A stretch of DNA of 64,000 nucleotides from Algimonas arctica (GTDB taxonomy: Bacteria; Pseudomonadota; Alphaproteobacteria; Caulobacterales; Maricaulaceae), in the NCBI RefSeq assembly GCF_014652695.1, contig NZ_BMZH01000004.1:1-64000 (forward strand), written 5' to 3'. A program made the translations under genes and the position numbers. Positions 13,737-32,783 of this stretch are shown piece after piece (within the stretch, counting starts at the first letter, position 1; the number at the start of each line of letters is the position of its first letter). Under the pieces are notes generated by a model that did not search any database, was not told where the DNA came from, and worked only from the letters and a program-made list of their open reading frames with translations.

Positions 13737-15062
13737 ATGGGGAGCGAAGAACAATGCATAATGGATGAACTATCGGCGAACGACTCGGGTTTGCTTGATG
13801 CTGATAATGTTCCGAACGCGAACCAATCCCTGACCTGTTTCTCCTGCGAAGAGCCTATGACGGGCCTCTACTGCTATGCGTGCGGGAATAAGAACGACAA
13901 TTATCGCCGCTCTGTCTGGTCGCTTGGGTCTGAACTGTTCCAAAACTTAACGGCATTTGAAGGCCGTATTTGGGCCAGCTTGTCCAGTCTAGTCTTCAAA
14001 CCGGGGCAAATGGCCCGCGAATATGCGGATGGCGCACGGCAGAGGTGGACTTCTCCCATCCGTCTCTTTCTCGCGACGTCACTCGTCTTGTTTGGTTACA
14101 TCGCCCTGTCAGGCACACAAATCATCGTCCTCGGCGATATTGAGTCTGGCGACGCACGGTCCAAACAGGGCATTAATTTCGAGGTTGACGAAGAAAAATA
14201 TAATCAGCGTCTCTTATTTTTTGTCCGAGAATCAAAACTGAAAACGCCCCCATCTGACCGGGTGGCGTTGATCAGTGACGGGTTTAATCTCAACATCGGC
14301 CAAAACCGTACGCCAGAATCGCTGCGTGCCGCCATCGACGACCTCACTTTGCAAATTGAGCAGACGGACTCGGAGATTACAATGGAAGCCTTAGCCGCAA
14401 CGCGCAAAGGGCTGATGCAAACTCTGGCAAAAGCAGAGGCCCAAACAGCGACTGAAACAACGGACGCCCCTCAAACAGAGCCCCCTGTGGGCGACGAAAC
14501 GACCCCGGATGATAGTGGCCGAACCCTATCTTTCCCGGGCACAAATGGAGAGATTATCACGCTTGATGGGCAGGGCATGTCGGATCTGTACGCTCGCATC
14601 CTTCGCAACCCAGCAGTCGTCAACAATCAACTGAACACGAAGCTGAAATGGGCAATGTTTTTCATGATGCCGTTTGCGATGTTCATGGGCGCGATCTTTA
14701 TTCGCGGCCGAGAAACAGCCATGCTCTATGACCATCTCGTTCATGCGGCCTATGTGCATGCGTTCTCATTCTTGCTGCTGTTCATATTCATTCTTCTGTC
14801 GCAATACACCGCGATCTCATATCTCATCGTTTGGTACACCGTGATATTGCTCGTGTATTTACCTTGCTCCGTTAAACGGGCATTCCGCCGGGGCTGGTTT
14901 AAATCTTTACTGACGGCTTACGGCGTTGGCTGGGTTTATACATGGACCATGCTGTTCATCGCGACCGCCATCCTCGCCACAGCTTTGCAATCCGTGGCAC
15001 TCGACATTTCGGATCATAGTCCCACTCGCCCTATTCCGCAGACGGTCGTGCCGGGGGCTTAG
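13737..15062 (+). CDS. DUF3667-type zinc-ribbon membrane protein
   Basis: A 441-residue protein. Near the N terminus a CxxC...CxxC zinc ribbon (CFSCEEPMTGLYCYACG) precedes a conserved FEGRIWASLSSLVFKPGQMAREYADGARQRW segment (first part shown in family) and a membrane span (RLFLATSLVLFGYIALSG). A long soluble, acidic loop (about 140-290) follows, then three to four C-terminal spans. This is the layout of DUF3667 proteins, whose function I do not know. The start at 13737 is provisional; an in-frame ATG at 13761 is possible. Its 3' end overlaps the convergent holin-like gene by 32 bases. Confidence 0.75.
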   Translation: MGSEEQCIMDELSANDSGLLDADNVPNANQSLTCFSCEEPMTGLYCYACGNKNDNYRRSVWSLGSELFQNLTAFEGRIWASLSSLVFKPGQMAREYADGARQRWTSPIRLFLATSLVLFGYIALSGTQIIVLGDIESGDARSKQGINFEVDEEKYNQRLLFFVRESKLKTPPSDRVALISDGFNLNIGQNRTPESLRAAIDDLTLQIEQTDSEITMEALAATRKGLMQTLAKAEAQTATETTDAPQTEPPVGDETTPDDSGRTLSFPGTNGEIITLDGQGMSDLYARILRNPAVVNNQLNTKLKWAMFFMMPFAMFMGAIFIRGRETAMLYDHLVHAAYVHAFSFLLLFIFILLSQYTAISYLIVWYTVILLVYLPCSVKRAFRRGWFKSLLTAYGVGWVYTWTMLFIATAILATALQSVALDISDHSPTRPIPQTVVPGA

Positions 15063-15504
15063 GCGCGCGATCACCAAACCACCACAAGGTCGCCGCTGTC
15101 GCCGCAAAAACCGCCGCGTCGATGACGCTGCCATCGCCCGTTTGCGCAAAGATGAAAGCGGTGATCAACCATAGCAAAAGCGTGAGTACAGGGCGAACGA
15201 GCCGAAGCGTATTGACCACCCAGCGGCTTCCTTCACCAATCGCAGCCTCCGCCAGAATTGACGCTTCGAGCCCTTTCCAACTGCCAGACTGTGCAATGAG
15301 CGCCAGCTCAGCTTCAGTTTCTTGTGCATTGGCCTGCATCGTCAGCTCATGCAATTTTAGCTCATGCGACCAGCGCGCCTGTTCTTGATTGAAGGTCTGC
15401 TTACGCTCAAAAAACCCTGCAATACGTCCCAATCCTGTCCCAATAAGACCGAACAGTCCGCTCGCGGCGGCATCGAGTGAGAGAGTGGCTAATCCTGTTG
15501 CCAT
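15031..15504 (-). CDS. phage-type membrane protein, candidate holin
   Basis: A 157-residue protein. It has a weakly hydrophobic Gly-rich N terminus (DAAASGLFGLIGTGLGRIAGF), a central charged coiled-coil (about 33-75, rich in Gln/Glu/His), and two C-terminal spans (VRPVLTLLLWLITAFIFAQ and DAAVFAATAATLWWFGDR). The terminal WWFGDR is a hallmark of phage lysis-region membrane proteins and GTA-type three-span holins. Its start (ATG 15504) lies inside the preceding M15 peptidase gene, a 16-base overlap, so the two are co-translated like a lysis cassette. Assignment as holin is inference. Confidence 0.65.
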   Translation of the reverse strand: MATGLATLSLDAAASGLFGLIGTGLGRIAGFFERKQTFNQEQARWSHELKLHELTMQANAQETEAELALIAQSGSWKGLEASILAEAAIGEGSRWVVNTLRLVRPVLTLLLWLITAFIFAQTGDGSVIDAAVFAATAATLWWFGDRAPKPPARPSAE

Positions 15505-15875
15505 AGCGTCCTCGCTTTGCGTGTGCCGAACCATTGCCGCACCGGACCCATGTCAGCGTGTATGAAGGTGGTGTAGAAACCAAAACCCGTAAATCCCGCC
15601 TCACTGAGGGACATGTATAAAGCGCCCGGATCATGGTCCCGTAGGGCGATATCAACGGCAAGACGAAGATGTTGGGACCTCGACGCACCCCCGACACGGG
15701 CATTATGCAAGCTGCAACGGTGGGCGGAGAGGATGTGAAACGGTCGCCCAATCTGATCACGGGCGGCCTGCAACGCATCCATGAACGCTGGCCAATGATA
15801 GGCCTGCTCACAATGGCGACAGGACATCTCAACACGACTAAAATCAGGCCAACGCCAATTTGTTTGATTTGTCAT
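15489..15875 (-). CDS. M15-type peptidase (phage/GTA endolysin-like)
   Basis: A 128-residue single-domain zinc peptidase of the Peptidase_M15_3 type. It has FSRVEMSCRHC near the N terminus, SAHRCSLHNARVGGASRSQH in the middle, and zinc ligands H69, D75 (SQHLRLAVD) and H106 (FIHADMG). There is no signal peptide, as in endolysins that need a holin. Family members cleave peptide cross-links or D-Ala-D-Ala in peptidoglycan. It is followed by a holin-like gene with a 16-base overlap. No other phage gene is nearby, so this may be a gene-transfer-agent or domesticated lysis module. Confidence 0.82.
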   Translation of the reverse strand: MTNQTNWRWPDFSRVEMSCRHCEQAYHWPAFMDALQAARDQIGRPFHILSAHRCSLHNARVGGASRSQHLRLAVDIALRDHDPGALYMSLSEAGFTGFGFYTTFIHADMGPVRQWFGTRKARTLWQQD

Positions 15876-15924
15876 GCTATAAACATGACGGCGCTTTTCA
15901 GACCGAGGATCAGTCTTTGGCCAG

Positions 15925-15954
15925 ATATAAAAAAACCCGCCTAGGGGCGGGTTT
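15925..15954 (-). terminator. intrinsic terminator of the OmpA/DUF2853 operon
   Basis: A 9-base perfect stem, AAACCCGCC (15933-15941) with GGCGGGTTT (15946-15954), loop TAGG. On the minus strand the stem is followed by a run of T (15932-15926). It stands 36 bases after the DUF2853 gene stop and before the M15 gene. Confidence 0.9.
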
Positions 15955-15990
15955 AAGATCGTTTTTAAAAAGTGGTTTTACGCGGATAGA

Positions 15991-17013
15991 CTAATTGAAC
16001 AATTCCAGCTTCTTCACTTTTTTCGCCGCAAGGTAATAGAAGGTCACGCGCGATTTCATACGCTGCCCCTTCATTTCCTCACAAACAGATTTGACCAGAT
16101 CCATCTGACCGTCTTCAACACCGAGTTTCTTCGTCACGAAACCTTTTGCAACCGTTTGCAACTCAGTCTCATCCGAACATGCGACAAGGCTGCTATCGCG
16201 AGAGCGAAGTGAGACACCGCAATATTTGACGATGTTTTCAACGACAGTCTTGGACGCACGCGCATCATACTTTTTGACGTTCTCATAGTATTTATCAAGC
16301 TTCGCATCAGACTTTGGGGCCGCCTTCTTTTTCGCAGGAGCGGCCTTCGCCGTTGCTGCTTTTGGCTTAGCCGCGGTCTTTTTCGCTGCCGCGGTTTTCT
16401 TTGCCGCAGGCTTTTTCGCCGCGGGTTTCTTGGCGGCAGCAGGCTTCTTGGCGGCAGCAGGTTTCTTCGCCGCCTTCTTAGCGGGGGCGGCAGCCGTTAC
16501 AGCAGCAGCTGTGGCAACGGCGGCAGCCGCAGCTTTTGGCTTAGCGGTGCTTTTCTTCGCGACAGTCTTTTTGGCCGGCGCCTTCTTAGCAGTCGCCTTG
16601 GCTTTTTTGACCGGCTTGGCGTCATCCGCCCCACCCATCTCAGCCAGACGGCTATCAAGATATTTCACACGGGCTGCGAGATAGCGATTTTGCCATTCCA
16701 GCGCATAAGTGTCATCGGCCTCTGTTGTCTTAGTCGTCACATCTCCTGAGGCCGCGACCACTGGGGACGCTGCAAGCTGAGTTTTCAGATCAGAGACTTC
16801 AGAGTCACGTCCCGCGACGCGACTTTCAAGATCTTGAACTCGCGCCCGAAGACTGTCGGCTTCGGCCCTTAACGCGCCCTCACCTTCGACGCTCAGATCA
16901 CCGGCGCGCTTTGTTGAAGGCTTCAGGAGCCAACCCAATATAAAACCGATCATCCCGATGATCAGTGACGGTATGAGGTAGTAAGCCCCCAAAAATCCAA
17001 AAAAATTGTCCAT
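15991..17013 (-). CDS. membrane-anchored DUF2853 protein with histone-H1-like linker
   Basis: A 340-residue protein of composite structure. It has an N-terminal span (about 10-30, YLIPSLIIGMIGFILGWLL), a short coiled-coil (about 45-75), and a highly basic Ala/Lys/Pro low-complexity linker (about 130-230) made of AAKKPAA-like units as in histone H1 and AlgP-type proteins. The C-terminal domain (about 235-340; VVENIVKYCGVSLRSRDSSL, then KSRVTFYYLAAKK) matches DUF2853. DUF2853 usually occurs as a free protein of about 110 residues; here it is tethered. The linker could bind DNA or another polyanion. It is the second gene after an OmpA-family gene, 9 bases apart, and is followed by a strong terminator. 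Confidence 0.82.
   Translation of the reverse strand: MDNFFGFLGAYYLIPSLIIGMIGFILGWLLKPSTKRAGDLSVEGEGALRAEADSLRARVQDLESRVAGRDSEVSDLKTQLAASPVVAASGDVTTKTTEADDTYALEWQNRYLAARVKYLDSRLAEMGGADDAKPVKKAKATAKKAPAKKTVAKKSTAKPKAAAAAVATAAAVTAAAPAKKAAKKPAAAKKPAAAKKPAAKKPAAKKTAAAKKTAAKPKAATAKAAPAKKKAAPKSDAKLDKYYENVKKYDARASKTVVENIVKYCGVSLRSRDSSLVACSDETELQTVAKGFVTKKLGVEDGQMDLVKSVCEEMKGQRMKSRVTFYYLAAKKVKKLELFN
16320..16620 (-). repeat. Ala/Lys-rich coding repeat within the DUF2853 protein
   Basis: A stretch of short, imperfect tandem coding repeats (units such as GCCGCCAAGAAACC on the coding strand) giving AAKKPA and AAAKK peptides. The opposite strand is also open as an alanine-rich frame, but that is an artefact of composition. 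Such tracts often vary in length between strains. Confidence 0.7.
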
Positions 17014-17022
17014 GTGTTCTTC

Positions 17023-18117
17023 CTATTCGGCTCTGCTCAGGATGAATTCGATTCGACGGTTTTGTTCCCGTCCTTCAGGGGTCGCATTGCTGGCGATAGG
17101 ATTATCAGATCCCAAGCCACGCGCGGCAAGACGGGCCAATTCAATCCCACCTTGTTCACTTAGGTAAAACAGCACGGCATTCGCACGGTCTTCAGAAAGC
17201 TTTTGGTTCATCTCTGCTTCACCATCACTGGACGTATATCCATTAATAGCAATGCGGAAGTTAGGGCACTGATTGGCCGCGCTGGCCAGTTCAGCCAACA
17301 GATCGAAATTACGATCTCCACGGATAACCGCTTCGCTTGATGCGAAATTTATTTTCCGCCCGTTACGAAGATCGTCGAGAAGACCTTGGCAAATCGTTTG
17401 CGAACCCGACTGACCAAAGACTTGGACAGGCACTTGAGGCACAGCAACATTGCCAACAAAATTATACCCTTCCGACGTGCCGTCACCCATCAAACCATAA
17501 AGCGCTTGCTGAATATCGCGAGACGAAGATTTACCTTGGAGAGACCCTTCGAAGTCTTCGATCAAAAGCCGACCTGAATCGAGCTGAGCAAGGTTACGCA
17601 TGTAAAGGGTGATGACATCAGTCCAGCGTCCGTCGGGCGCACCGCTCGCGAGAATTAATCTATCATCGGCGACGTTATCGTTTCCGAAAATCTCGACGGC
17701 ATTGCGAAGGATCGTTCCCCGAATTTCTTCTGAAGGAACATAACCGTTCAGGATGACGGTGCCACTTTCAGTTTTGCGCGCTGAAAAGCTATAGGGAGAT
17801 TGTGTTGGCAACGCCGCCAGTTCAACGACTTTTGTTGCATCTTCAACGGTATGCCAGCGATGCTTGTCTTTGCACGCCGAGCAATATGCGTCAGTCGCAA
17901 TCTGAATCGCGTTCTGTTGTTCAGCGAGGCTTGGCGCGGTTCCGGAGACTCGTGCTTCATTGCCGCTCATTTCGACATCGGCCCAATCATAGCCCGCCGT
18001 CACAAGATCTGTTTTAATGTTGCTTTGCATATCTGCCATTCGCGTCTCGGCGGTCATAAGACCGTAGCCAAGCCCAACGAACATCAGAATGATCGCGCCC
18101 AATATCCAGCGACCCAT
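17023..18117 (-). CDS. OmpA-family protein with BON-like domains
   Basis: A 364-residue protein with a single N-terminal span (GRWILGAIILMFVGLGYGLM), periplasmic BON-like repeats (about 35-60 NEARVSGTAPSLAEQQ; about 100-150 SGTVILNGYVPSEEIR), and a C-terminal OmpA/Pal-type peptidoglycan-binding domain (about 245-364; INGYTSSDGEAEMNQKLSEDRA, then RAARGLGSDNPIA-like and NRRIEF). The anchor suggests an inner-membrane protein that grips the cell wall. The ATG at 18117 is chosen because GGGAG lies 7 bases upstream; longer starts would put it too close. It is co-transcribed with the tethered DUF2853 protein, suggesting the two act together at the envelope. Confidence 0.85.
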   Translation of the reverse strand: MGRWILGAIILMFVGLGYGLMTAETRMADMQSNIKTDLVTAGYDWADVEMSGNEARVSGTAPSLAEQQNAIQIATDAYCSACKDKHRWHTVEDATKVVELAALPTQSPYSFSARKTESGTVILNGYVPSEEIRGTILRNAVEIFGNDNVADDRLILASGAPDGRWTDVITLYMRNLAQLDSGRLLIEDFEGSLQGKSSSRDIQQALYGLMGDGTSEGYNFVGNVAVPQVPVQVFGQSGSQTICQGLLDDLRNGRKINFASSEAVIRGDRNFDLLAELASAANQCPNFRIAINGYTSSDGEAEMNQKLSEDRANAVLFYLSEQGGIELARLAARGLGSDNPIASNATPEGREQNRRIEFILSRAE

Positions 18118-18235
18118 TATCATTCTCCCAGTTCCCCACACGAAGTCCGTATAGGACTAACGTACCAATGGTAAACGATAGATGCCGCCACCGTAAACCC
18201 TTAATGAATTGATAACTGATTAAGCGTGGGATGGA

Positions 18236-19201
18236 TTAGGCGTGGGAGGAAAGTCGCGCCAAAGCAGATTTGAATTCGGTTTCCAGCGTGTTCACGACGT
18301 CGGCGACCGACGTGGAGCTGTCGATCGTTCCAACGCCCTGCCCCGCGCCCCAGATATCTTTCCAAGCTTTCTTGTCCGTATTACCACCGGATCCAAAATT
18401 CATGGACGTCTTGTCAGCCGTTGGCAGATTGTCTGGATCCATACCCGCTTTTACAATCGAGCCGCGCAAGTAGTTTCCGTGTACACCGGTAAAAAGTGGA
18501 GAATAGACGATGTCCGCGCCAGAGCTATCAACAATTTCTTGTTTATAGGCGGCTTCGGCATTGGCCTCATCCGTCGCAATAAAGCGCGTGCCCATATAGG
18601 CCATATCCGCACCAATCCCGATTGCGCCCGCGATAGACCCGCCTGTACTCATGGATCCGCTACATAAGATCGGACCATCGAAGAATTTGCGGATTTCAGG
18701 AATGAGCGCAAAAGGCGACAAAGTACCCGCGTGACCGCCCGCGCCGGCACAGACGGCAATGATACCGTCTGCACCCATGCTCAGCGCTTTTTTGGTGTGA
18801 CGGATGTTCGTGACGTCATGCAGAATGATCCCGCCATAAGAATGAGCAGCGTCATAGACTTTCTGATTGGCTTGAAGCGACGTGATGATGATCGGCACTT
18901 CGTGCTTCACGCAAACTTCCATATCATGCGCCAGTCGATTGTTCGACGGATGACAAATCTGATTAACCGCAAACGGTGCGACAATGGCGTCAGGATTATC
19001 GCGCTGATAGGCTTCGAGCTCCAGCTTGATCCGGACGATCCATTTTTCCAGCATATCAGCCGGCCGGGCATTCAACGCAGGGAAGCTGCCAATAATACCG
19101 GCTTTGCATTGCGCAATCACGAGGTCCGGACCGGACACGATAAACAAAGGTGCCGCGATAACGGGAATTCGCGTCTGTTTAAGAATATCGGGAAGAGCCA
19201 T
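18236..19201 (-). CDS. nitronate monooxygenase / NPD-family FMN oxidoreductase
   Basis: A 321-residue FMN enzyme of the 2-nitropropane dioxygenase family. Features are the N-terminal TRIPVIAAPLFIVSGPDL segment, the phosphate-binding AVCAGAGGHAGTLSPFALIPEI region and a GSMSTGGSIAGAIGIGADMAYMGTRFIAT C-terminal barrel part (first two thirds are typical of the family). Members oxidise alkyl nitronates or act as enone reductases. It starts 3 bases after the stop of the M28 peptidase gene, so the two are one operon. The functional link to peptide breakdown is unclear. Confidence 0.85.
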   Translation of the reverse strand: MALPDILKQTRIPVIAAPLFIVSGPDLVIAQCKAGIIGSFPALNARPADMLEKWIVRIKLELEAYQRDNPDAIVAPFAVNQICHPSNNRLAHDMEVCVKHEVPIIITSLQANQKVYDAAHSYGGIILHDVTNIRHTKKALSMGADGIIAVCAGAGGHAGTLSPFALIPEIRKFFDGPILCSGSMSTGGSIAGAIGIGADMAYMGTRFIATDEANAEAAYKQEIVDSSGADIVYSPLFTGVHGNYLRGSIVKAGMDPDNLPTADKTSMNFGSGGNTDKKAWKDIWGAGQGVGTIDSSTSVADVVNTLETEFKSALARLSSHA

Positions 19202-19204
19202 AGT

Positions 19205-20605
19205 CTAGTTACCTGTATCTGAACGGAAGTCTGTTTCGGCATTGGCAGCAAGCCACGCCATAAGAGCGAAAGCGGCGACATTTTCGGCCATGTCGTCAGG
19301 ATCAATTTTATCAAGTGTATCGTCGGGTGTGTGATGCAGATCGAAATAATCTGTTCCATCTTGCTGGAACCGCATTGTCGGCACGCCAAGCGCGGCAATG
19401 GGGCCAATGTCCGGTCCACCATTTGTCCCGCGTTCACCCATCGGCAGGCCCAAAGCGTCAGCCGCGGCTTTAATGACCTCTTGCCCTTCAGTGACGCCGA
19501 GAAGAACTTCATATGCTGGCGTTGACCCGAAATCAGATTCGGTCGCGAGGACGTGATTAATCAGGTCTTCCTTGTGAAGGTCGCGATACGCAAACCCGCC
19601 CAGCAACCCGACTTCTTCAGCGCCATAAGCCACAACGCGAATTGTCCGTTTGGGTTTCAGTCCAGCTTCGATCAGCACTTGCGCGGCCCCGGCACTAATT
19701 CCGATTCCAGCGCCATCATCAATCGCGCCCGTTCCAAGATCCCAACTATCCAAATGTCCACTGATGAGGACAATTTCGTCCGGCCGTTCAGTTCCGACAA
19801 TCTCACCGATCACATTGCCAGACGGCATATCCCCTGACGCGCGCGGTTGAATATTCAGGGCCATCGTGACGCTGTGTTCGCGTTCAAACATACGTTCGAG
19901 CTGATTGGCGTCAGGTGCAGACAGCGCAGCAATTGGAATTTTCGGAAGGTCTGGCGCGTATCGCATCTGACCCGTGTGGGGAAAGCGATGCGAATCGGTC
20001 CCAACCGAGCGGATCACAACAGCGGCTGCGCCGCGCTTCGCAGCTTCCGACGCACCCGACCTTCGTTTTTGATTAGCCGGACCATAGCCTGCGCCGTCAG
20101 GCGCCTTGTCCATCAAGCCTGAAATGAAGACGATTTTACCGTCCAATCCCCCTGCCGGTGCGCTTACAAGGTCTTCAAAGGTTGGAAAATAAGCAATTTC
20201 TGCTGTTACGCCACCAAAGGGAGTCGCTACCGAACCGCCTAATGCCGTCACCACCATCTGTTGGGGATAGGGACTGACGATTGTGGCCGTCTCTACACCG
20301 CGTTCCCAGCCTGGAATTGTGAATGGTTCGACCCGAACATTTTGCAATCCGATCTCTTTAAACTTTTCCACAGTCCAATCACGGGCACGCGCCTCGGCTT
20401 CTGTCCCAGCCAAACGTTGGCCGACTTCTGTCGTCAACCCTTCGACGATGAGGTAACCTTGCGACCCGGATCGCGCTGCATCTAATATTTGTTGTTCAAC
20501 GGTCTCGCTGACGTTCGATTGCATTGCTGGCGTGGCACACGCTGTCACGCCAATCATAATGGCAAGCATAGCGCTTCCCTGTTTCGCCCATTGACCAATC
20601 GACAT
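19205..20605 (-). CDS. M28 family zinc exopeptidase (lipoprotein, PA-domain type)
   Basis: A 466-residue peptidase resembling carboxypeptidase Q/aminopeptidase members of M28. It has a lipoprotein signal (IMIGVTAC, Cys23), a protease-associated insert (about 130-250), and the di-zinc site GHLDSWDLGTGAIDDGAG (His and bridging Asp), followed by YGAEEVGLLGG (catalytic Glu pair) and the late HHTPDDT ligand. It is likely periplasmic, releasing amino acids or dipeptides. It is divergent from a second M28 gene with 84 bases between them, which may share regulation, and is followed at once by a nitronate monooxygenase gene. Confidence 0.9.
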   Translation of the reverse strand: MSIGQWAKQGSAMLAIMIGVTACATPAMQSNVSETVEQQILDAARSGSQGYLIVEGLTTEVGQRLAGTEAEARARDWTVEKFKEIGLQNVRVEPFTIPGWERGVETATIVSPYPQQMVVTALGGSVATPFGGVTAEIAYFPTFEDLVSAPAGGLDGKIVFISGLMDKAPDGAGYGPANQKRRSGASEAAKRGAAAVVIRSVGTDSHRFPHTGQMRYAPDLPKIPIAALSAPDANQLERMFEREHSVTMALNIQPRASGDMPSGNVIGEIVGTERPDEIVLISGHLDSWDLGTGAIDDGAGIGISAGAAQVLIEAGLKPKRTIRVVAYGAEEVGLLGGFAYRDLHKEDLINHVLATESDFGSTPAYEVLLGVTEGQEVIKAAADALGLPMGERGTNGGPDIGPIAALGVPTMRFQQDGTDYFDLHHTPDDTLDKIDPDDMAENVAAFALMAWLAANAETDFRSDTGN

Positions 20606-20689
20606 ATTGAACCTCGTCTCTGAATTTGCAGGCTTGATAAACGGTCCAGCCGCGTTAGCAACTGCGTGAAACTGAATGGGAGTTCTACA

Positions 20690-22372
20690 ATGACGAAAAC
20701 TGTTCTTCTGGCGAGCGCCTGCGCCGCCTTTGTCCTTACTGGCTGTGCTGATTCCGACGTCGCAGCGTCCAAACCTGTTTTTAACCCGGGCACAATGATT
20801 TCAGCGACCGACTTAGGCCGCCGCATTGAAACACTGTCCTCCGACGACTTTATGGGTCGCGCACCGGGAACAGAGGGCGGACAGAAGACGCTTGATTATA
20901 TTGCTGCCGAAATGAAGGCGGCTGGTCTTGCCCCAATGGGCGACAATGGCACCTATTTCCAAACTGTTGAACTCGCCGAAGCCACGCTCAATGCTGATAG
21001 CATGATGCAGATCACCCATGATGACGATGTCATCGTTGCTGCGAACGCGTCACAAACAAACGAAGCGATATTCTGGAGCAAGAAAACCGACGCCGCTTTG
21101 ACTTTGGCAGACAGTGAGCTCGTTTTTGTTGGCTACGGCGTCGTTGCCCCAGAATTTGGCTGGAATGATTACGAAGGCCTCGACGTTGAAGGTAAAACCG
21201 TTGTCATGCTCGTCAATGATCCGGGCTACGCGACCAAGGACGCGGCACTCTTTAATGGTGACGCGATGACCTATTATGGTCGCTGGACATATAAATATGA
21301 AGAAGCGGGCCGTCAGGGGGCTGCGGGCGCTATCGTGATCCACCAAACCGCTCCGGCCTCTTATCCGTGGGAAGTCGTCTCAGGAAGTTGGACAGGAGCT
21401 CAGCTAGATGTTGTGCGCGCCGACGGCGGGGCAGACCGCGCGATCTTGGAGGGCTGGGTCACAGAAGACATCGCCAAGTCCTTGTTCGCCTCTGCCGGGC
21501 TAGACTTTAACACCCTCTCCGTCAGCGCCGCATCCACGGGTTTTGAAGCGGTTGATATGGCGGAGCTCCAACTCAACGCGACCATCAATCAATCCGTAAA
21601 AACGGTTGAAAGCGCCAATGTTGTCGGCGGCATACGCGGCACTGTCCATCCTGACGAATATGTCCTTTATATGGGCCACTGGGACCATCTCGGGAACAAT
21701 GGTGTCGGTGAAGACCATATTTATAACGGCGCCGTCGATAATGCGACTGGTACGGCCGCTATCATTGAAATTGGTGAAGCCTTTGTCGAAGCGGGCGCGC
21801 CAGAGCGATCTGCCCTCTTCGTCGCCGTTACGGCGGAAGAAAGCGGCTTGCTCGGCTCCGCTTATTACGCCGCAAACCCAATCGTTCCGTTGAAACAGAC
21901 CGTTGGCGGCATCAACATTGATGCGATCCAACCGATCGGCGAAACAAAAGATGTTATCGTCGTGGGTTATGGTAGCTCAGAGTTGGAAGACCGCTTGAAC
22001 GACATTCTCACCCCGCGCGGCATGCGGATCGAACCGGACAAGAACCCATCGGCCGGTTATTTTTATCGCTCAGATCACATTAGCCTCGCCAAGCGCGGTG
22101 TGCCGATGCTCTATGCGGATGGCGGTGTTGATCATGTCACTAAGGGTAGCGCTTACGGCGAAGCCTTTGGCAAAGAGTATACGGAGATCCGTTACCACAA
22201 GCCTGCTGATGAATATGACAATAGCTGGGATCTGTCCGGGATCAAACAAGTCTCAGAAATCCTGTTTGAGCTCGGCTATAATTTGGCTGATAGTACAGAC
22301 TGGCCAAATTGGTATGATGGCAATGAATTCCGGGCGCTCCGTGATGAGCAACGCGCGGAAATGGACGATTAA
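20690..22372 (+). CDS. M28 family zinc exopeptidase (lipoprotein)
   Basis: A 560-residue M28 peptidase. It has a lipoprotein signal with LTGC (Cys19), an N-terminal part with RIETLSSDDFMGRAPGTEGG typical of this group, a PA-like insert (about 150-240), and zinc-site motifs MGHWDHLG, NGAVDNATGTA and VTAEESGLLGS. Late ligand-region YFYRSDHISLAKRGVP and HKPADEYDN are also present. The ATG at 20690 is chosen because GGGAG lies 7 bases before it. It is similar in plan but not a close duplicate of the divergent M28 gene. A glycosyltransferase gene starts 8 bases after its stop, implying one transcript. Confidence 0.9.
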   Translation: MTKTVLLASACAAFVLTGCADSDVAASKPVFNPGTMISATDLGRRIETLSSDDFMGRAPGTEGGQKTLDYIAAEMKAAGLAPMGDNGTYFQTVELAEATLNADSMMQITHDDDVIVAANASQTNEAIFWSKKTDAALTLADSELVFVGYGVVAPEFGWNDYEGLDVEGKTVVMLVNDPGYATKDAALFNGDAMTYYGRWTYKYEEAGRQGAAGAIVIHQTAPASYPWEVVSGSWTGAQLDVVRADGGADRAILEGWVTEDIAKSLFASAGLDFNTLSVSAASTGFEAVDMAELQLNATINQSVKTVESANVVGGIRGTVHPDEYVLYMGHWDHLGNNGVGEDHIYNGAVDNATGTAAIIEIGEAFVEAGAPERSALFVAVTAEESGLLGSAYYAANPIVPLKQTVGGINIDAIQPIGETKDVIVVGYGSSELEDRLNDILTPRGMRIEPDKNPSAGYFYRSDHISLAKRGVPMLYADGGVDHVTKGSAYGEAFGKEYTEIRYHKPADEYDNSWDLSGIKQVSEILFELGYNLADSTDWPNWYDGNEFRALRDEQRAEMDD

Positions 22373-22380
22373 TCACGATT

Positions 22381-23109
22381 ATGCAGACCGTCATCTGCAT
22401 GAAATGGGGCACACGTTATGGCCCCGAATTCGTCAATCGCATGTGGGCCGCTGTGCAAAGAAACACAGCGCGCCCGACGCGACTTGTCTGCCTGACCGAT
22501 GATGTCACGGGGATTGATGCGGCTGTTCACTGCCACCCGATTCCCGACATCAATCTTCCCCTAGACTTGATTAATACGCCGTGGCGGAAACTGACCTTGT
22601 GGCAAGCGCCGCTCGCCGACCTCTCCGGTGACGTGTTATTTCTTGATCTTGACCTCGTTATCACGGGCTCTTTGGACGAAATGTTCGACTTTGAACCCGG
22701 ACGATATTGCGTCATTGAGAACTGGACGCAGATGGGTCAAGGCAATGGAAATACGTCGGCATTTCGTTTCCCAGTCGGAAAATATACGCATATTTTCAAT
22801 GACTTACAAGACAATCCTAACGACATTTTATCCCGTTACCGGATAGAGCAACTCTACATTTCGCGCGAAATCGACGACATGGTGTTCTGGCCAACCCTAT
22901 GGTGCGCATCCTTCAAACATACGCTGCTACCACGCTGGCCGATGAACTTTGTCAAAGCCCCTGACCTCCCTGCCGAGACACGGATCGTCGCGTTTACGGG
23001 TAAACCCGACCAAGACGAAGCCTTGCGCGGCGAATGGCCCGTGAAAGCCGCGTGGAAGAAACTCTATAAGCATGTCCGGCCAACGCCTTGGATTGCGGAG
23101 CACTGGTGA
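22381..23109 (+). CDS. putative glycosyltransferase
   Basis: A 242-residue cytoplasmic protein. An N-terminal nucleotide-sugar-type fold is suggested by MKWGTRYGPEFVNRMW and RLVCLTDD, and a DxD-type motif (VLFLDLDLVITGSLDE) is followed by an acceptor-like region (FRFPVGKYTHIF). This pattern is seen in small GT-A glycosyltransferases related to the GT8 group. Donor and acceptor are unknown. It overlaps the next gene, a GT10-type transferase, by GTGA, so the pair probably modifies the same surface glycan. Confidence 0.68.
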   Translation: MQTVICMKWGTRYGPEFVNRMWAAVQRNTARPTRLVCLTDDVTGIDAAVHCHPIPDINLPLDLINTPWRKLTLWQAPLADLSGDVLFLDLDLVITGSLDEMFDFEPGRYCVIENWTQMGQGNGNTSAFRFPVGKYTHIFNDLQDNPNDILSRYRIEQLYISREIDDMVFWPTLWCASFKHTLLPRWPMNFVKAPDLPAETRIVAFTGKPDQDEALRGEWPVKAAWKKLYKHVRPTPWIAEHW

Positions 23110-24170
23110 GCGCGCCATCCGATCATAAAATGATCCGCATCAAATTTGTCTCCAAAACCCAACCGGACGTCATCGACGCGCTGTGGCGACCGCTCCTCCC
23201 GACGGGATCTAATAGGATTGGCAATTGCATTTTTACCTTTGATATTGACACGTCCGATTATGACGTTTTAGTCGCCTATGAGGATTTGTCCCCCTTGCTG
23301 GGTGAAAAAAAGATTGACCGCAAAGAACGTCTCGCATGCGCGCCGATCAACACGTTTTTGCTGACAACGGAACCCGCGTCCATTCGCATTGATGGTCCAC
23401 ATTACTTACGCCAGTTCGGCCATGTCTGGACCGCCAAACACCCCAGCCTCGTCCGGCACCCGAGCCAGATTCGCGAAACCCCTCCGCTACGGTTTTTCTA
23501 TGGGCGGAATATGGTCGGCGGCACACATTTAGATGTTCCGAAACAGCCTCCCGAAAAAGTGATGTCCCTCTCCGCCATGTCTTCAACCAAGGCGATGGCG
23601 CACACGGTTCATGCGCAGCGTCTTTCCTTCATGCTCGCGCTGAAGGAAGGACTTGGGGATGATCTTCACCTCTTTGGTCGTGGCATTCAGCCCGTGGACG
23701 ACAAGGCCGAAGCGATGGCCCCCTATCGCTATCACGTCGCGGTCGAGAACCATGTCGAACCGGGTCACTTTACAGAAAAATTGACAGACTGTTTTGTTGC
23801 AGGGTGTTTACCGTTTTACTTTGGAGACCCGACATACGCCGCTGTATTTCCAAGAGAATCTGTTATTCAAATCGATATTTTCGATCTCGAACGCACAATA
23901 ACGATCATACGCGAAGCCATTGCGTCGGACCAATTTCGCAAGCGAAAAGCCGTGTTAGCCGACGCCCGCCGGATTACGTTAGACCGTTTCAACACATTGC
24001 AAGCCGTCGCCGCTAAAGTTGAAACCCTCTACGATCCGAATGCCGTGCGCGGAGGGACTATTTTGGGACGGCACGCATTTCGAAAAGCCCATCCGCTCAA
24101 AGCGGTTTCAGACGCTATTTTCAGGGCACATTCGCGCAAAAGTCCACAGGCAGCTTCTATTCAGATGTAG
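23106..24170 (+). CDS. GT10 family (alpha-1,3-fucosyltransferase-like) glycosyltransferase
   Basis: A 354-residue protein with the C-terminal GT10 signature YRYHVAVENHVEPGHFTEKL followed by DCFVAGCLPFYFGDP. In this family that region binds GDP-fucose. The N-terminal half (PFYGRNMVGG-like FFYGRNMVGG, then SAMSSTKAMAHTVHAQR) fits the acceptor domain. The GTG at 23106 gives a GTGA overlap with the preceding glycosyltransferase; an ATG at 23130 is an alternative. It likely decorates LPS or capsule with fucose or a related sugar. The sugar identity is inference. Confidence 0.82.
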   Translation: MSAPSDHKMIRIKFVSKTQPDVIDALWRPLLPTGSNRIGNCIFTFDIDTSDYDVLVAYEDLSPLLGEKKIDRKERLACAPINTFLLTTEPASIRIDGPHYLRQFGHVWTAKHPSLVRHPSQIRETPPLRFFYGRNMVGGTHLDVPKQPPEKVMSLSAMSSTKAMAHTVHAQRLSFMLALKEGLGDDLHLFGRGIQPVDDKAEAMAPYRYHVAVENHVEPGHFTEKLTDCFVAGCLPFYFGDPTYAAVFPRESVIQIDIFDLERTITIIREAIASDQFRKRKAVLADARRITLDRFNTLQAVAAKVETLYDPNAVRGGTILGRHAFRKAHPLKAVSDAIFRAHSRKSPQAASIQM

Positions 24171-24271
24171 AATGCAGTTTAGAGCCTTCCCCCGATACGC
24201 GAACCCGCTATGAAACATAGGAAATGAAACCTTAATGCGTCGACATGAGAATGTTCGGCCCGGAGTCTTTA

Positions 24272-26926
24272 ATGTCCCATTTGACCTACGCCTTCAAGCT
24301 TGCAACCTTGACGGCGGGCGCTCTCGTTTTGACTTTGGGTGTCACATCTGACGTATTCGCCAATGAAGGGCCTGGACGCGGTGTCGCCGGCAGCGCGACA
24401 GACGGCGTTGCGAAATTCCGGCAAATGGGAACTGAATTCCGTTCCCCAAACATCTACCGATCAGCCTCAGGCGCACCCGGTCCCGGCTATTGGCAACAAC
24501 GTGCGAATGTCGACATTGATGCCACGCTTGACGAAAGCCGACAGCACATCACGGCTGAGATGGACGTAGAATATGTCAATAACTCCCCTGACACGCTGAA
24601 CTATATCTGGCTCGCGCTCGACCAAAACCGTTTTAAAGATGGCAGCTTAGCGCGCGAAAGTGCGACTGCGTCCGCATCGGGCTCATCCCGTGGACAAGGC
24701 GGCGGCGGATCTGACAGCTATAGCTTTGGCCAGCTCCGTTACGAACATGCGATGGAAGACCGTAAATACGGGTTTGATTTCAGCCAAATCGCAGACATGT
24801 CAGGCGGTGAACTTTCTTATTTCATCAATGACTCTATGTTGCGAATTGACCTACCGACACCGCTCGCACCGGGTGCGACGTTCAACTTTCAAATCGATTG
24901 GGAGCATAATATCATCGACGAAGTCGCCGTTGGCGGACGCGGCGGGTTCGAATATTTCGAAGACGAAGACAATTACATTTTCGCGTTGGCACAGTGGTTC
25001 CCTCGCCTCGCAGCTTACACCGACTATACTGGTTGGCAGAACAAACAGTTCTTAGGGCGCGGCGAGTTTACGCTCGAATTTGGAGACTACACGGTCGATC
25101 TAACTGTTCCCGCAGATCACATTGTGTCCGCCACAGGCGTCTTACAAAACCCACGTCAGGTTCTCACCGCCGCGCAGCGCCGTCGTCTGGCAAATGCTGG
25201 CACTGATAAGCCCACCTATATCGTGACACCAGAAGAAGCAGCCAAGAATGAGAGCGCGAACGCCACGGGTACAAAAACGTGGAAATTCCAAGCCGAGAAT
25301 GTCCGCGACTTTGCGTGGTCCAGTTCGCCTAAGTATATTTGGGACGCGATGATTTTCGAACAGGATGATGCGGATCATCCTCAAGTCCTCGCGATGAGCT
25401 TCTTCCCTAAAGAAGCCGATCCAATTTGGTCACAATTCTCGACCCAAGCCGTCGTTCACACGATGGATGTCTATAACCGTTTTTCATTCAACTACCCCTA
25501 CCCGACCGCACAAAGCGTGAATGCGTGGGAACGTGGCGGGATGGAATATCCGATGATTACGTTTAACGGATACCGCCCCTACAAAGACAAAAAATCAGAA
25601 GAGATCGTCTATTCTCGCAATGTGAAATACGGTCTGGTGGGTGTGATCATCCATGAAGTCGGCCACATTTATTTCCCCATGACCGTCAACTCTGACGAGC
25701 GCAGGTGGACGTGGATGGATGAAGGCATCAATACATTCTTGGAATATATGGCGGAATATGAGTGGGAAGAAAATTTCCCAATCCGCCGCAATATGCAAAA
25801 CCCGTTGGATGAAATCACCCGCTACATGACCAGTTCCACTCAGGTGCCGATCATGACGCAATCTGATTCCGTGCTGCAATTTGGTCCAAATGCCTATGCC
25901 AAACCAGCGGCAGCCTTGATCGTGTTACGTGAAACCGTGATGGGACGTGAAGCCTTCGACTTTGCCTTCCGCGAATATGCAAACCGCTGGAAATTCAAAC
26001 GCCCGACACCGGAAGATTTCTTCCGTACCATGGAAGATGCATCCGCTGTTGACCTCGACTGGTTCTGGCGTGGATGGTTCTTCGGCACTGACTATGTCGA
26101 TATGGCGATCACCGATGTCCGCGAATATCAAATTGGCACGAATGATCCGGATATCGAAAAAGATATCGCTCGCGATGAAGATCTCACGCGATATCCAGAG
26201 AACATCGTTCAGCGACGTAACCGCGATGAAGGTCGCACAACGCGTGTCGATCGGTTCAAGGATCTGAATGATTTTTATAATAAAAATGACAGCTTCACCG
26301 TCACAAATGCCGACCGCAATACGTTCACATCTTTCCGAAACGGTTTGAAAGACTGGGAACGCAAAGCCTATGATCGCGCGATGGAAGATGGGAAATATCT
26401 CTATTTCGTCGATTTCGAAAACATTGGGGGTCTGATTTCACCGTTACCTCTGACGCTAAAATTCGCGGACGGTAGTAGCGAAGACCTGATGGTTCCGGCT
26501 GAGATTTGGCGCCGTGATAGCCAACATGTCAGCAAGCTCATTGTCCGTGACAAACGCATTGAGAGCATTCAACTCGATCCATCTCACCAGACAGCCGATG
26601 CGGATTATGGCAATAATGGCTATCCACAATCCATGGTGTCCGATCGCCTGACGCTCGCGAAGTCAAACTCGACGAATAGAAGCCTGATGGCCGATATGCT
26701 GCGCGAATTGAAGACTGAGGAGACAGATGAAGGCGCGCCGTCTGACGAGAGTTCGATTCCGCTGCAACGCTCCGAAGGGTCCGAAACAGACACGACGACC
26801 GAGGCTCCCGCCGAATCAACTCCTGCGGAAAATTCAGAAGAGACCGCACCAACAGACAATGATGATGAGGCCAAACGCACGAGCCTGCGCGAAACGCTTC
26901 GTAAGATGCTGGGCCGTGAAGACTGA
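24272..26926 (+). CDS. M1 family metallopeptidase
   Basis: An 884-residue secreted zinc peptidase. Signal peptide residues about 1-29 end in VFA. The zinc site is H461-E-V-G-H465 with third ligand E484 (MDEGINTFLE), the M1 spacing of 18 residues. A catalytic-domain Tyr region and the gluzincin substrate motif GGMEYP (exopeptidase GxMEN variant) are visible. The C-terminal 100 residues are Ser/Thr/Glu-rich and probably disordered. The ATG at 24272 is supported by GGAG 7 bases upstream. It overlaps a DUF6702 gene by 11 bases. It probably acts in the periplasm or at the outer surface on peptides. Confidence 0.9.
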   Translation: MSHLTYAFKLATLTAGALVLTLGVTSDVFANEGPGRGVAGSATDGVAKFRQMGTEFRSPNIYRSASGAPGPGYWQQRANVDIDATLDESRQHITAEMDVEYVNNSPDTLNYIWLALDQNRFKDGSLARESATASASGSSRGQGGGGSDSYSFGQLRYEHAMEDRKYGFDFSQIADMSGGELSYFINDSMLRIDLPTPLAPGATFNFQIDWEHNIIDEVAVGGRGGFEYFEDEDNYIFALAQWFPRLAAYTDYTGWQNKQFLGRGEFTLEFGDYTVDLTVPADHIVSATGVLQNPRQVLTAAQRRRLANAGTDKPTYIVTPEEAAKNESANATGTKTWKFQAENVRDFAWSSSPKYIWDAMIFEQDDADHPQVLAMSFFPKEADPIWSQFSTQAVVHTMDVYNRFSFNYPYPTAQSVNAWERGGMEYPMITFNGYRPYKDKKSEEIVYSRNVKYGLVGVIIHEVGHIYFPMTVNSDERRWTWMDEGINTFLEYMAEYEWEENFPIRRNMQNPLDEITRYMTSSTQVPIMTQSDSVLQFGPNAYAKPAAALIVLRETVMGREAFDFAFREYANRWKFKRPTPEDFFRTMEDASAVDLDWFWRGWFFGTDYVDMAITDVREYQIGTNDPDIEKDIARDEDLTRYPENIVQRRNRDEGRTTRVDRFKDLNDFYNKNDSFTVTNADRNTFTSFRNGLKDWERKAYDRAMEDGKYLYFVDFENIGGLISPLPLTLKFADGSSEDLMVPAEIWRRDSQHVSKLIVRDKRIESIQLDPSHQTADADYGNNGYPQSMVSDRLTLAKSNSTNRSLMADMLRELKTEETDEGAPSDESSIPLQRSEGSETDTTTEAPAESTPAENSEETAPTDNDDEAKRTSLRETLRKMLGRED

Positions 26927-27410
26927 TTTACCGACACGCCGGATCATCATTGGCGGGATCGCAGCCCTCACGGTTGCGACCCCGGCTGTGGCGCATCGTC
27001 TCGCGCGGACTGAAACAGACGTCCGGATCACCCCCGATGGTGCAATAAGCGTCATCCACGTGTACCATTTACAGGATGCGCAATCAGCCTTGTTCCAAGC
27101 AAAAATGATCGATCAACCCGACCTGAGTTCACTGCGAGCCCGGGCGAAGCTCGCGCTTTATACGCAAGAGTGGTTCACGATTGCCGCGAGTGGTGTCCCC
27201 GCCACACTCGAAATCATTGGCGCCGAAATTGAAGGGGATAGTGTTTACATCTATCAGGATGGCCACATTGGCGATGGGTCGCTCTCAATTGATGCGCGTA
27301 TGCTGCGCGATTTGATCAAAAATCAGAGTAATAGTGTCAACATAGTTCGCGATAACGAAACAATCACGCTCGAATTCTCCGGGGATGATGGTCCGAAACA
27401 GGTTGCGTGA
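26916..27410 (+). CDS. DUF6702-type secreted protein
   Basis: A 164-residue protein with a predicted signal peptide (IIIGGIAALTVATPAVAHR). The mature part begins RLARTETDV and has alternating beta-like segments (ISVIHVYHLQDAQ, then DGDSVYIYQ-like EGDSVYIYQDG), fitting DUF6702, a family repeatedly found beside M1-type peptidases. Function unknown. The GTG at 26916 lies inside the end of the M1 gene (11-base overlap); no better start is available before the signal peptide. The genetic coupling suggests joint export and action with the peptidase. Confidence 0.7.
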   Translation: MKTDLPTRRIIIGGIAALTVATPAVAHRLARTETDVRITPDGAISVIHVYHLQDAQSALFQAKMIDQPDLSSLRARAKLALYTQEWFTIAASGVPATLEIIGAEIEGDSVYIYQDGHIGDGSLSIDARMLRDLIKNQSNSVNIVRDNETITLEFSGDDGPKQVA

Positions 27411-27437
27411 TTCACATCCCCTGCCTAGTCCGGTGTT

Positions 27438-28082
27438 ATGCTTACTATACACCACCTCAACAATTCTCGATCTCAACGCATCCTCTGGCTCTTAGAAGAG
27501 CTCGGAATAGAGTATGATATTCACGCCTACGCGCGCGATGCGGAAACTAGTCGGGCGCCGGCTGAATTGAAAGCCGTACACCCGCTCGGCAAAAGCCCCG
27601 TCATTGAACATGATGGCTTGATTGTCGCTGAAACGGGCGCAATCATCGTTTATCTCCTCAATGTGTTTGGTACCGATGCTGAGGGCAATCGACGTTTCCG
27701 CCCTGAACTGGGCACGCAAGAATATGTCGATTACGTCCACTTCCTTCATTTCGCAGAAGGATCAGCCATGCTGCCGTTATTGCTCGCTCTCTATACGGGT
27801 TTTCTTGGCGACGCCGCACAACCGATCCAGCCCATGATCACCGACGAAATCAAAAAGGTCTTGGATTACTGCGAGTATTCACTCGTGCGTAATAAATGGT
27901 TCGCGGGCGATGAATTGACAGGCGCGGATTTCAACATGATCTTCCCGTTAGAGGCTGCGCGGGCGCGCGGACGCTTGAAGGGCTACGAAGCCTGCAACGA
28001 ATTTGTTGATCGCGTTTGGAAACGTCCCGCCTATCTCCGCGCGTTAGAGCGCGGCGGGAATTACGATTACGGGCCAAAGTAA
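27438..28082 (+). CDS. glutathione S-transferase family protein
   Basis: A 214-residue GST. The N-terminal thioredoxin-fold domain has HHLNNSRSQRILWLLEELG, VHPLGKSPV (cis-Pro) and the ETGAI glutathione-binding motif (Ser/Thr after Glu); the C-terminal helical domain has LTGADFNM, the N-capping motif. Members conjugate or reduce electrophiles with glutathione. Substrate unknown. It is followed 16 bases later by a VOC-family gene, another small-molecule enzyme. Confidence 0.9.
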   Translation: MLTIHHLNNSRSQRILWLLEELGIEYDIHAYARDAETSRAPAELKAVHPLGKSPVIEHDGLIVAETGAIIVYLLNVFGTDAEGNRRFRPELGTQEYVDYVHFLHFAEGSAMLPLLLALYTGFLGDAAQPIQPMITDEIKKVLDYCEYSLVRNKWFAGDELTGADFNMIFPLEAARARGRLKGYEACNEFVDRVWKRPAYLRALERGGNYDYGPK

Positions 28083-28098
28083 TTTACGGACAAGAATC

Positions 28099-28512
28099 AT
28101 GAGTATCCCATTCCACCTTGCCGCCCCTATTCGGGACAAAGAAGAAACACGGACCTTCTATACATCTATGCTCGGCTGCTCTGTCGGCCGTGAAGCCGAT
28201 CATTGGATCGACTTTGACTTCTTCGGCCATCAGGTCAGTTTTCATGTTTGCACTGAGGCGGAAAACCTCGCGACGAATGAGGTTGATGGAAAATCTGTTC
28301 CCGTCCGTCATTTCGGTGCGGTTCTGCCGTGGTCCAATTGGCACATGCTTCGGGACCGACTGGTGGCTTCAGGCACAGAATTCGTGATCGATCCCTATAT
28401 TCGGTTCAAAGGCGAGACCGGAGAACAAGCGACGATGTTTTTCTATGACCCCAGCGGAAATGCGCTGGAATTCAAGAGCTTCAAAGATCCAAGTCAGCTT
28501 TACGCCGCTTAG
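28099..28512 (+). CDS. VOC superfamily (glyoxalase/dioxygenase-like) protein
   Basis: A 137-residue protein with two beta-alpha-beta-beta-beta modules: FHLAAPIRDKEETRTFYTSMLGC and the later GEQATMFFYDPSGNALEFKS (final Glu as metal ligand). An early metal-ligand His is in PFHLA. The substrate class cannot be told from sequence. It is likely co-transcribed with the upstream GST. Its stop codon overlaps the convergent neighbour's stop by three bases (TTAG). Confidence 0.85.
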   Translation: MSIPFHLAAPIRDKEETRTFYTSMLGCSVGREADHWIDFDFFGHQVSFHVCTEAENLATNEVDGKSVPVRHFGAVLPWSNWHMLRDRLVASGTEFVIDPYIRFKGETGEQATMFFYDPSGNALEFKSFKDPSQLYAA

Positions 28513-29246
28513 AAGTTTTTCCCAATGAAAAGACGAATTTGATCGTCACGCGCACTGTTGGTCACACCGTGCAATGTCCCAATCATAACGGGGACATCCT
28601 TGGTGAGATTGAACTCAATAAAGGGCCCGGCAACCGTTGAACTACGTTTCAGAAAGAGAAGCTCGCTCGAATCGCCAAAGTTGCTAAAACCATGAACGCC
28701 CAGCCGAACGCCATTCTCTAACTTACGGCTGACCTGTGCTGCCCCACCAAAAGCAATGTCGTCCGACGTCTTGTCCGAAAATTGAATCGTTCCTGACAAC
28801 GCACCTCGCGCACGCCATCCATCGTTAAAAGTCATCTGATGAGCCCAATTCAGACCAATCGTATCAGAACGATTATTCGCGCGTGTCCGAAGATCGAGAC
28901 GCAAACCCGTTTGATAGGGCTGCGATTTCGGAGTGATTTGCCAAGTTACTTCTAGCTTCGCATAATCAAAATCAAAATCTGAACTCGCTGTTCGCAGGGT
29001 TTGAATCGACCCACGAATATTGAAGCGGTCATTGATCGCCTGACGATATAACACACGCTGAGCGATTGCCGCTTCGCCCGTCGAGTCATCGTCGACATCG
29101 ACAGCGATTCGATATTGCAGAAACTTCTCACCCTCTTTGACCGTGGCCCCAGGGACACCGCTGGCTATTTGAGCGTAAACAGGGGCGGCTAAGCCAGACA
29201 GAGCCGTGATAGTTGTGAATGCCAAGATGAAAGATGAGAGACGCAT
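28509..29246 (-). CDS. hypothetical secreted protein, probable outer-membrane beta-barrel
   Basis: A 245-residue protein with a clear signal peptide (FILAFTTITALSGLAAPVYAQ). The mature sequence is rich in alternating polar/hydrophobic 8-12-residue strands with Gly, Arg and Asn turns (for example FLQYRIAVDVDDDS, YAKLEVTWQITPKS, TGLRLDLRTRANNRS) and ends in phenylalanine (IGKNF), the usual BamA-recognised C-terminal residue. I recognise no named family. The ATG at 29246 gives the correct signal peptide; longer frames do not. Confidence 0.65.
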   Translation of the reverse strand: MRLSSFILAFTTITALSGLAAPVYAQIASGVPGATVKEGEKFLQYRIAVDVDDDSTGEAAIAQRVLYRQAINDRFNIRGSIQTLRTASSDFDFDYAKLEVTWQITPKSQPYQTGLRLDLRTRANNRSDTIGLNWAHQMTFNDGWRARGALSGTIQFSDKTSDDIAFGGAAQVSRKLENGVRLGVHGFSNFGDSSELLFLKRSSTVAGPFIEFNLTKDVPVMIGTLHGVTNSARDDQIRLFIGKNF

Positions 29247-29586
29247 TGTTTTAGCCCTATGGGGGCCGTCACCCCAATGCCGGAGCATTGTGATCGTGCT
29301 CCACGCAACTTGAGTATGTCGAATTTGCTACAAATATGTGTCATCCTATATGACTGGAGTCAATATTCCTGACTGTAACCTCACACTTAAATCACGGGGA
29401 ATGTCTCCCTTCGTTGGAACAGAGAAATGAGAGAGGAAGTTCATTTAGACCCGCCAGAAACGGCCCGATCATAAGTCTCGACCAAGGTTTGAGAGACCAA
29501 AAACAAGCTTTGTCTATCTGGGCCTTTTGAACACCACGACTACGGGCGTCACACCCACCGGATCAAAATCGTTGGAAAAGCCCGCC
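29247..29586. other. 340-bp intergenic region
   Basis: No gene, RNA or clear hairpin seen. It lies between the downstream end of pirin and the start of the barrel-like protein, both on the minus strand, so it should hold the promoter of the latter. I could not pick out convincing -35/-10 boxes. Confidence 0.5.
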
Positions 29587-30477
29587 TTAAAAAACCAATT
29601 TCTCAGGCAAAGGAATGAACTCGTCCACATCGTCAAAAACGACTGGGAATTCACCCATTCGCCAATCGTCTGCGGCTTGTGTGATCCGCTCCGGCCGGGA
29701 TGAGACGAAGTTCCACTTCATATGCCGTTCGCCAAGTGGCGCGCCGCCCACGACCACGAACCGCGTACGACCTCGAGCCGTCACAAGATGGGGGCCATGA
29801 TTCAAAATCGAGAACACAAAACGGTCTGATTTATGCCCCTCAATGTCTGCTTGGCCTTCAACAACATATATTGCGCATTCTGGCGCCTCAGGAAGCGTCA
29901 CAGTCGCACCGTCCGGTATTTCAACCTCGTAGTAGAGAGTCTCTGAGAACACCTCGACTGGCGAGGTCAGGCCAAACGCCCGCCCCATCATCACACGGAC
30001 TTTGGCGCCTGTTTCCAGCGTCATCTCTGGAATCGTGCCAGCAGGATGATGATGAAAGCTTGGCTCTCTTTCTTCTTCGGTGTCGGGCAAGGCGTGCCAT
30101 AACTGTAAGCCGTGCAGCCGAAATCCGGTCTCGCGTAATTCATCGCGCGTACGTTCGCTGTGAGCGATGCCCTTGCCCGCAACCATCAAATTAATGGCGC
30201 CGGGAAGAATTGGCGCGGAATTCCCCAAACTATCGCGATGCCAAATTTCACCTTCGAATAGATAGGTGACGGTCGCGATCCCGATATGGGGGTGCGGACG
30301 CACATTCATGCCGTCGCCCGAGGAAAATTCAACAGGACCGAAATGATCAAAGAAAACCCATGGCCCAACAGACCGATGTGCGGGAAACGGTAAAGCCCGT
30401 CGAACCGTAAAGCCGCCGAGATCTTTAACCTTCGTGTTCAACGAAGCCTTGATTGGGAGAGCGTGGGGCGTCAACAT
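29587..30477 (-). CDS. pirin family protein
   Basis: A 296-residue bicupin. The N-terminal cupin carries the metal site of pirins: RPHPHIGIATVTYLFEGE (two His) with later H in EIWHRDS and Glu in TRDELRE context, plus the conserved VGPWVFFDHFGP segment and GKGIAHSER. Bacterial pirins bind iron and can show quercetinase activity; regulatory roles are reported in some. The ATG at 30477 is preferred to a TTG at 30486. It is divergent from a GST gene with only 27 bases between starts. Confidence 0.9.
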   Translation of the reverse strand: MLTPHALPIKASLNTKVKDLGGFTVRRALPFPAHRSVGPWVFFDHFGPVEFSSGDGMNVRPHPHIGIATVTYLFEGEIWHRDSLGNSAPILPGAINLMVAGKGIAHSERTRDELRETGFRLHGLQLWHALPDTEEEREPSFHHHPAGTIPEMTLETGAKVRVMMGRAFGLTSPVEVFSETLYYEVEIPDGATVTLPEAPECAIYVVEGQADIEGHKSDRFVFSILNHGPHLVTARGRTRFVVVGGAPLGERHMKWNFVSSRPERITQAADDWRMGEFPVVFDDVDEFIPLPEKLVF

Positions 30478-30504
30478 AGCGGTCAATTTAAGGAAAATCC
30501 GCCA

Positions 30505-31137: not shown

Positions 31138-31175
31138 GGGTTGAGAAGGGATTTCATGCGTATATAGATGATATT

Positions 31176-32453: not shown

Positions 32454-32465
32454 CCGATTCTCCAA

Positions 32466-32491
32466 AGAAAAAGCCGCCCAAAGGGACGGCT
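32466..32491 (-). terminator. intrinsic terminator of rpsU
   Basis: On the minus strand AGCCGTCCC, loop TTT, GGGCGGCT (one bulged T) forms a stem followed by TTTTTC. It is located 27 bases after the rpsU stop and just before the cupin gene, so it ends the S21 transcript. Confidence 0.8.
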
Positions 32492-32517
32492 GTTTCAGTA
32501 ACAAATATCGAAGCGGC

Positions 32518-32751: not shown

Positions 32752-32783
32752 GTGTCGGTTCAACTCTCATTTTATAAAATAGC

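Follow-up and report, generated by a model that had tools for sequence, protein, structure and literature searches.

A pair of overlapping genes in Algimonas arctica, encoding a cell wall peptidase and a holin-like membrane protein, is most probably the lysis module through which the alphaproteobacterial gene transfer agent (GTA) is released in this organism's family, and is encoded outside the head-tail cluster. Gene transfer agents are phage-like DNA carriers and, to our knowledge, their exit from producer cells is understood in very few species. The pair lies in the 64-kb stretch of A. arctica DNA analysed here (the window) and has the hallmarks of a GTA release module, namely a wall hydrolase adjacent to a holin-like protein and an RcGTA-type cluster in the genome and lineage. 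A release module apart from the head-tail cluster was the first idea of the initial annotation, and it gains from the existence of the GTA cluster, the conservation of the pair, the lack of a surrounding prophage and the shared promoter described below. The pair also offers a concrete release module candidate for relatives of the same order in Hyphomonas, Henriciella, Litorimonas, Hellea and Robiginitomaculum.

From the genes and their promoter we infer a course of events in which GafY/GafZ-type activators would fire and the pair would be transcribed along with the GTA main cluster. The holin-like protein would build up in the inner membrane and open it, the signal-less M15 endopeptidase would then reach the wall and presumably cut peptide bonds of the peptidoglycan, and the cell would burst and let the particles escape. 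Activators of the GafY (Bac_DnaA_C) and GafZ (DUF6456) types are encoded beside the GTA cluster, and Caulobacter likewise has GTA activators of these types (PMC11150451).

A metallopeptidase overlapping a holin-like gene

The first gene of the pair (15489-15875, minus strand) encodes a 128-amino-acid endolysin-type M15 peptidase without a signal peptide. It scores 66.6 bits against the Peptidase_M15_3 profile (cut-off 23.2), and its zinc ligands H69, D75 and H106, read as intact in the initial annotation, are invariant in 20 relatives, so that both the zinc site (H, D, H) and the profile match place it in peptidase family M15. Most of the same 20 relatives carry a CRHC motif near the N-terminus. 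An AlphaFold model of the protein (pLDDT 82.7) has the Zn DD-peptidase 1lbu as its best PDB fold match and is also similar to phage M15 proteins.

The second gene, on the same strand, encodes a holin-like membrane protein of the phrog_6637 family whose C-terminus is WWFGDR. Both open reading frames are where the initial annotation had placed them, with one probable refinement: the listed frame of the membrane protein (15031-15534) overlaps M15 by 46 bp, and the start common to relatives lies 10 codons downstream at 15504, which shortens the overlap to 16 bp and yields a protein of 157 amino acids (15031-15504). The conserved start is the more likely one. The protein has two clear hydrophobic helices toward the C-terminus, a weak third at the N-terminus and a long helical middle, and is thus like holins in being small, having one to three transmembrane helices and being encoded beside an endolysin; its structural model has a low pTM (0.35). 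Pfam and NCBIfam family scans returned nothing useful for it, and none of 20 members matched GTA_holin_3TM (PF11351) at E<=1 in a Pfam model search. All 20 relatives matched phrog_6637, a family listed as of unknown function, and one matched the holin family phrog_4237. Topology, neighbourhood and these weak family matches suggest a holin function, and phrog_6637 is probably a holin family hidden among unannotated phage proteins.

A promoter type shared with the GTA main cluster

Immediately upstream of the pair lies a GTA-type promoter (15882-15910, minus strand) made up of ATCCTC (15910-15905), a 17-bp spacer, CATGTT (15887-15882) and 6 bp leading to the ATG. Its geometry, ATCCnC-N17-YAnnnT-N6-ATG, suggests that it is leaderless. 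M15 upstream regions across the genus have (A/G)TCCnC, 17 bp, a TATnTT-like box and a start codon 6-7 bp further on, with the 17-bp spacing in 15 of 21 and every other spacing in 0-1. Those of Hyphomonas-type genomes have ATCCnn-N17-CAnnCT-N6/7-ATG in 16 of 24 and other spacings in 0-2, and the two sets of counts mark the 17-bp spacing as specific.

A weight matrix built from M15 upstream regions alone recovered the GTA promoters: the gafY promoter ranked 1st-6th of ~15,000-34,000 positions in 11 of 13 GTA loci, and in 7 GTA loci the best site was the promoter of the first main-cluster gene. We also searched with a strict pattern, ATCCNCG-N16-YAWNNT-N5-7-ATG. It has four matches in the A. arctica genome, at M15 (window 15873-15910), at the first GTA gene (C9:120649) and before two frames of 15 and 7 amino acids, and in genome G003 it matches at the first GTA gene and M15 only. 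Since the genus genomes tested contain 1-4 matches genome-wide, the pattern does not mark a general regulon. It occurs once in the window and in none of 100 shuffles, and within GTA loci a real open reading frame with this architecture before it is almost always the first main-cluster gene. In the Hyphomonas-type genome G052 we found no GTA main promoter of this strict type, so outside the window's family the architecture is seen for M15 only.

This strongly shared promoter sequence suggests joint regulation of the pair and the GTA main cluster. The pattern could serve to find more genes of the GTA regulon. The initial annotation had proposed a check for co-regulation through GafA/CtrA-type sites; the promoter common to M15 and the GTA main cluster would fit co-regulation, but the site is not of the CtrA type. 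We rejected CtrA-type control of the pair, as a full TTAA-N7-TTAA site is absent upstream.

Upstream of gafYZ in the genus (L172-L197) we observed a strongly conserved near-palindrome, ATAGGAATATAATCCTC, possibly an operator or a site of autoregulation, that is absent before M15. Separately, genome G034 has two further matches to the promoter pattern (L217, L227) before related open reading frames with a shared CTRGLxATI start, possibly extra members of the regulon.

Conservation of the pair and its relatives in phages

The neighbours of the pair in the window are DUF2853, OmpA/BON and DUF3667 genes, and there is no phage structural gene beside it, as the initial annotation had said. A terminator-like hairpin with a T-run (15930-15960, minus strand), conserved in the genus, follows the upstream DUF2853 gene and makes the pair a separate transcription unit. 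M15 was found in 16 of the 17 same-genus genomes, and its distribution in the wider family is patchy; the pair is also conserved in Hyphomonas/Henriciella-type families, and an alignment search with the holin named relatives in Litorimonas, Algimonas, Hellea, Robiginitomaculum, Henriciella, Hyphomonas and Ponticaulis. The M15 gene of these relatives is nearly always overlapped by a holin gene, an arrangement whose repetition in almost all of them takes it beyond chance. Within the genus the pair is single copy and has one fixed place between the DUF2853/OmpA genes and the DUF3667 gene, with intact frames at 55-74% identity. In other genera it sits elsewhere among different neighbours and stays together, which identifies the pair itself as the unit. 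The initial annotation had proposed a check of conservation across Hyphomonadales; the pair is conserved and does not lie in a prophage. One close species (G014) has a separate HK97-type prophage ~25 kb from the pair (L190, G014:C1:1997000-2015000); the pair is in the same place in most relatives.

Adjacent M15 and holin genes also occur in phage contigs, both podovirus-like and Mu-like. Judged from sequence and position, such a pair precedes Mu-like terminase and portal-type genes in one contig (L316) and follows tail-type genes in another (L317). RcTitan and Jorvik are among the phages that have M15 relatives. A tblastn search of the holin against isolated phages gave no match at E 0.01, and matches in viral contigs were obtained with an alignment query. 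The phage phrog_6637 proteins beside M15 endolysins have the same adjacent arrangement as the A. arctica genes, whereas the pair described here stands alone in the chromosome under a GTA-type promoter.

These homologous phage pairs, together with the M15 relatives in RcTitan and Jorvik, are what one would cite for the pair being a leftover lysis cassette of an unrelated prophage, retained by chance. Such an origin seems most improbable to us given the genus-wide synteny, the intact and single-copy frames, the absence of other phage genes nearby and the GTA-type promoter; moreover, in the three closest species the pair does not have an elevated rate when compared with flanking genes. Genome G031 encodes two longer M15 proteins (L046, L047) that have a membrane helix at the C-terminus and whose genes each follow a large gene; these loci are duplicated phage-like regions, and their cassette is not the same as the M15-holin pair.

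Linkage to GTA genes

In one genome (G296) gp15, M15 and holin follow each other in this order on one strand, so that the GTA cluster ends, on its 3' side, with the pair. Two GTA_TIM loci (L162/L203) are present in G296, and one of them carries DUF2793, gp15, M15 and holin on one contig. The holin gene lies directly after a DUF2793-type gene in G024, G056, G169 and G180 (Pfam-checked in G024 and G056), and in G296 the DUF2793-type gene is inside the GTA cluster. Several other genomes have the pair and a GTA_TIM gene on one contig, 32-43 kb apart, which is suggestive only as a link to the GTA.

Decay of the peptidase in genomes without a GTA

Among order members, GTA_TIM is found in 286-287 of 397-398 and the holin in about 111. 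Holin presence has no overall association with the GTA (a GTA is present in 80 of 110 genomes with the holin and in 286 of all 397), because other families have GTAs without the holin. GTA_TIM is missing from 30 of the genomes with a holin, most of which have no HK97 capsid either.

A relationship emerges within the Hyphomonas family (f2), where M15 has decayed in 9 of 23 GTA-minus and 1 of 39 GTA-plus genomes (Fisher p=3e-4), counting as decay an M15 that is absent, truncated, frameshifted or stopped or has lost a zinc ligand, such as H to R in G218 and H to N in G317. At least 18 changes of GTA status and 9 of decay on the holin tree indicate that the lesions are mostly independent. A phylogeny-aware independent-pairs test went in the expected direction (2.4 vs 0.1) with too little power for significance, and the terminal branches of the holin tree are longer for GTA-minus than for GTA-plus genomes (medians 0.13 vs 0.074, p=0.003, kinship ignored). 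The many losses of the GTA, some accompanied by decay of the pair and others not, provide a natural experiment on what GTA-driven lysis costs.

The intact pair is kept in 14 of the 23 GTA-minus f2 genomes, and also in A. arctica, G014 and G017. Retention in several GTA-minus genomes would suit a domesticated holin and endopeptidase export unit, akin to type 10 secretion, that lets a large protein cross the envelope while the cell stays whole, in the way that ChiW/ChiX serve the chitinases of Serratia. The Serratia ChiWXYZ operon encodes a holin and an M15-type L-Ala-D-Glu endopeptidase (PMC5778951), hence the same pairing as here with ChiX as the peptidase, and the ChiX structure 5opz is a weak match in the M15 fold search. 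Neighbourhood annotation and synteny, however, revealed no spanin-like partner and neither a chitinase nor another conserved cargo gene near the A. arctica pair; with a promoter of the GTA cluster type and an M15 that decays after GTA loss, we regard an export role as very unlikely.

A broken GTA cluster in A. arctica and its closest relatives

The initial annotation had proposed a search for a GTA structural cluster. One is present in the genome, as in about 287 of 398 order members, but in A. arctica it is broken. Contig C9 carries intact GafY (Bac_DnaA_C), GafZ (DUF6456), first GTA gene and terminase; the portal ends after about 35 codons, where an IS-type element begins. The terminal inverted repeat of this element (39 of 42 bases matching) recurs at the start of contig C12, beside gp15. 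IS-type terminal inverted repeats thus flank an assembly gap inside the GTA cluster that extends from portal codon ~35 to gp15 (L196 at the C9 end, L032 at the C12 start). Capsid and gp12 were not found in the assembly, which is 99.98% complete, and gp15 has an in-frame TAA. Because the cluster is broken, the pair in A. arctica is an intact orphan that serves no complete GTA.

The three closest species have three different breaks in the GTA cluster, and the pair is intact in each. G014 has lost the tape measure through most of gp15, and in G017 a deletion joins the N-terminal part of the capsid in frame to the C-terminal domain of gp15 (Rcc01698_C) (L197 10705-11955). An intact pair beside a broken GTA could possibly reflect recent loss or a second use. 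One form of such use, which we consider rather unlikely, is that the lysis arm outlives the particle: gafYZ, the promoter type and the pair are intact despite the breaks, and controlled lysis would be valuable in itself, for example by releasing DNA or nutrients to kin.

The same persistence of pair, promoter and gafYZ alongside broken particle genes could be read as a wall-remodelling or programmed-lysis unit, for DNA or vesicle release for instance, that has no tie to GTA particles and merely shares their promoter type. That reading is very improbable in light of the rarity of the promoter pattern (1-4 matches per genus genome tested), the position of the pair at the end of the G296 GTA cluster and the association of M15 decay with GTA loss.

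Comparison with known release systems

The GTA release reading has a precedent in Rhodobacter capsulatus, whose RcGTA relies on a lysozyme/endolysin (rcc00555) and a holin (rcc00556) that are encoded away from the head-tail cluster and co-induced, and disruption of rcc00555 blocks release (PMC3423380, PMC6209664, PMC9638019). The A. arctica pair is likewise an endolysin-holin pair outside the head-tail cluster, with a co-induction that its promoter would predict. It differs in having an M15 metallopeptidase in place of a lysozyme, a holin without a match to the holin-of-3TMs family PF11351, and a shared promoter of the ATCC-N17 leaderless type where RcGTA has CtrA half-sites.

Release of the Caulobacter crescentus GTA uses LypABC, which is CARD-NLR-like, and that genome is reported to contain no canonical holin-endolysin genes (PMC13236601). 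LypABC likewise provides lysis in a member of the same order whose GTA has GafYZ activators, whereas the candidate here is an M15 and holin-like pair. Among the papers searched here, none dealt with GTA release in Hyphomonadaceae-type bacteria. On its gene content and promoter, the M15-type, GTA-promoter-driven candidate module is best called a variant of the known endolysin-holin mode of GTA release.
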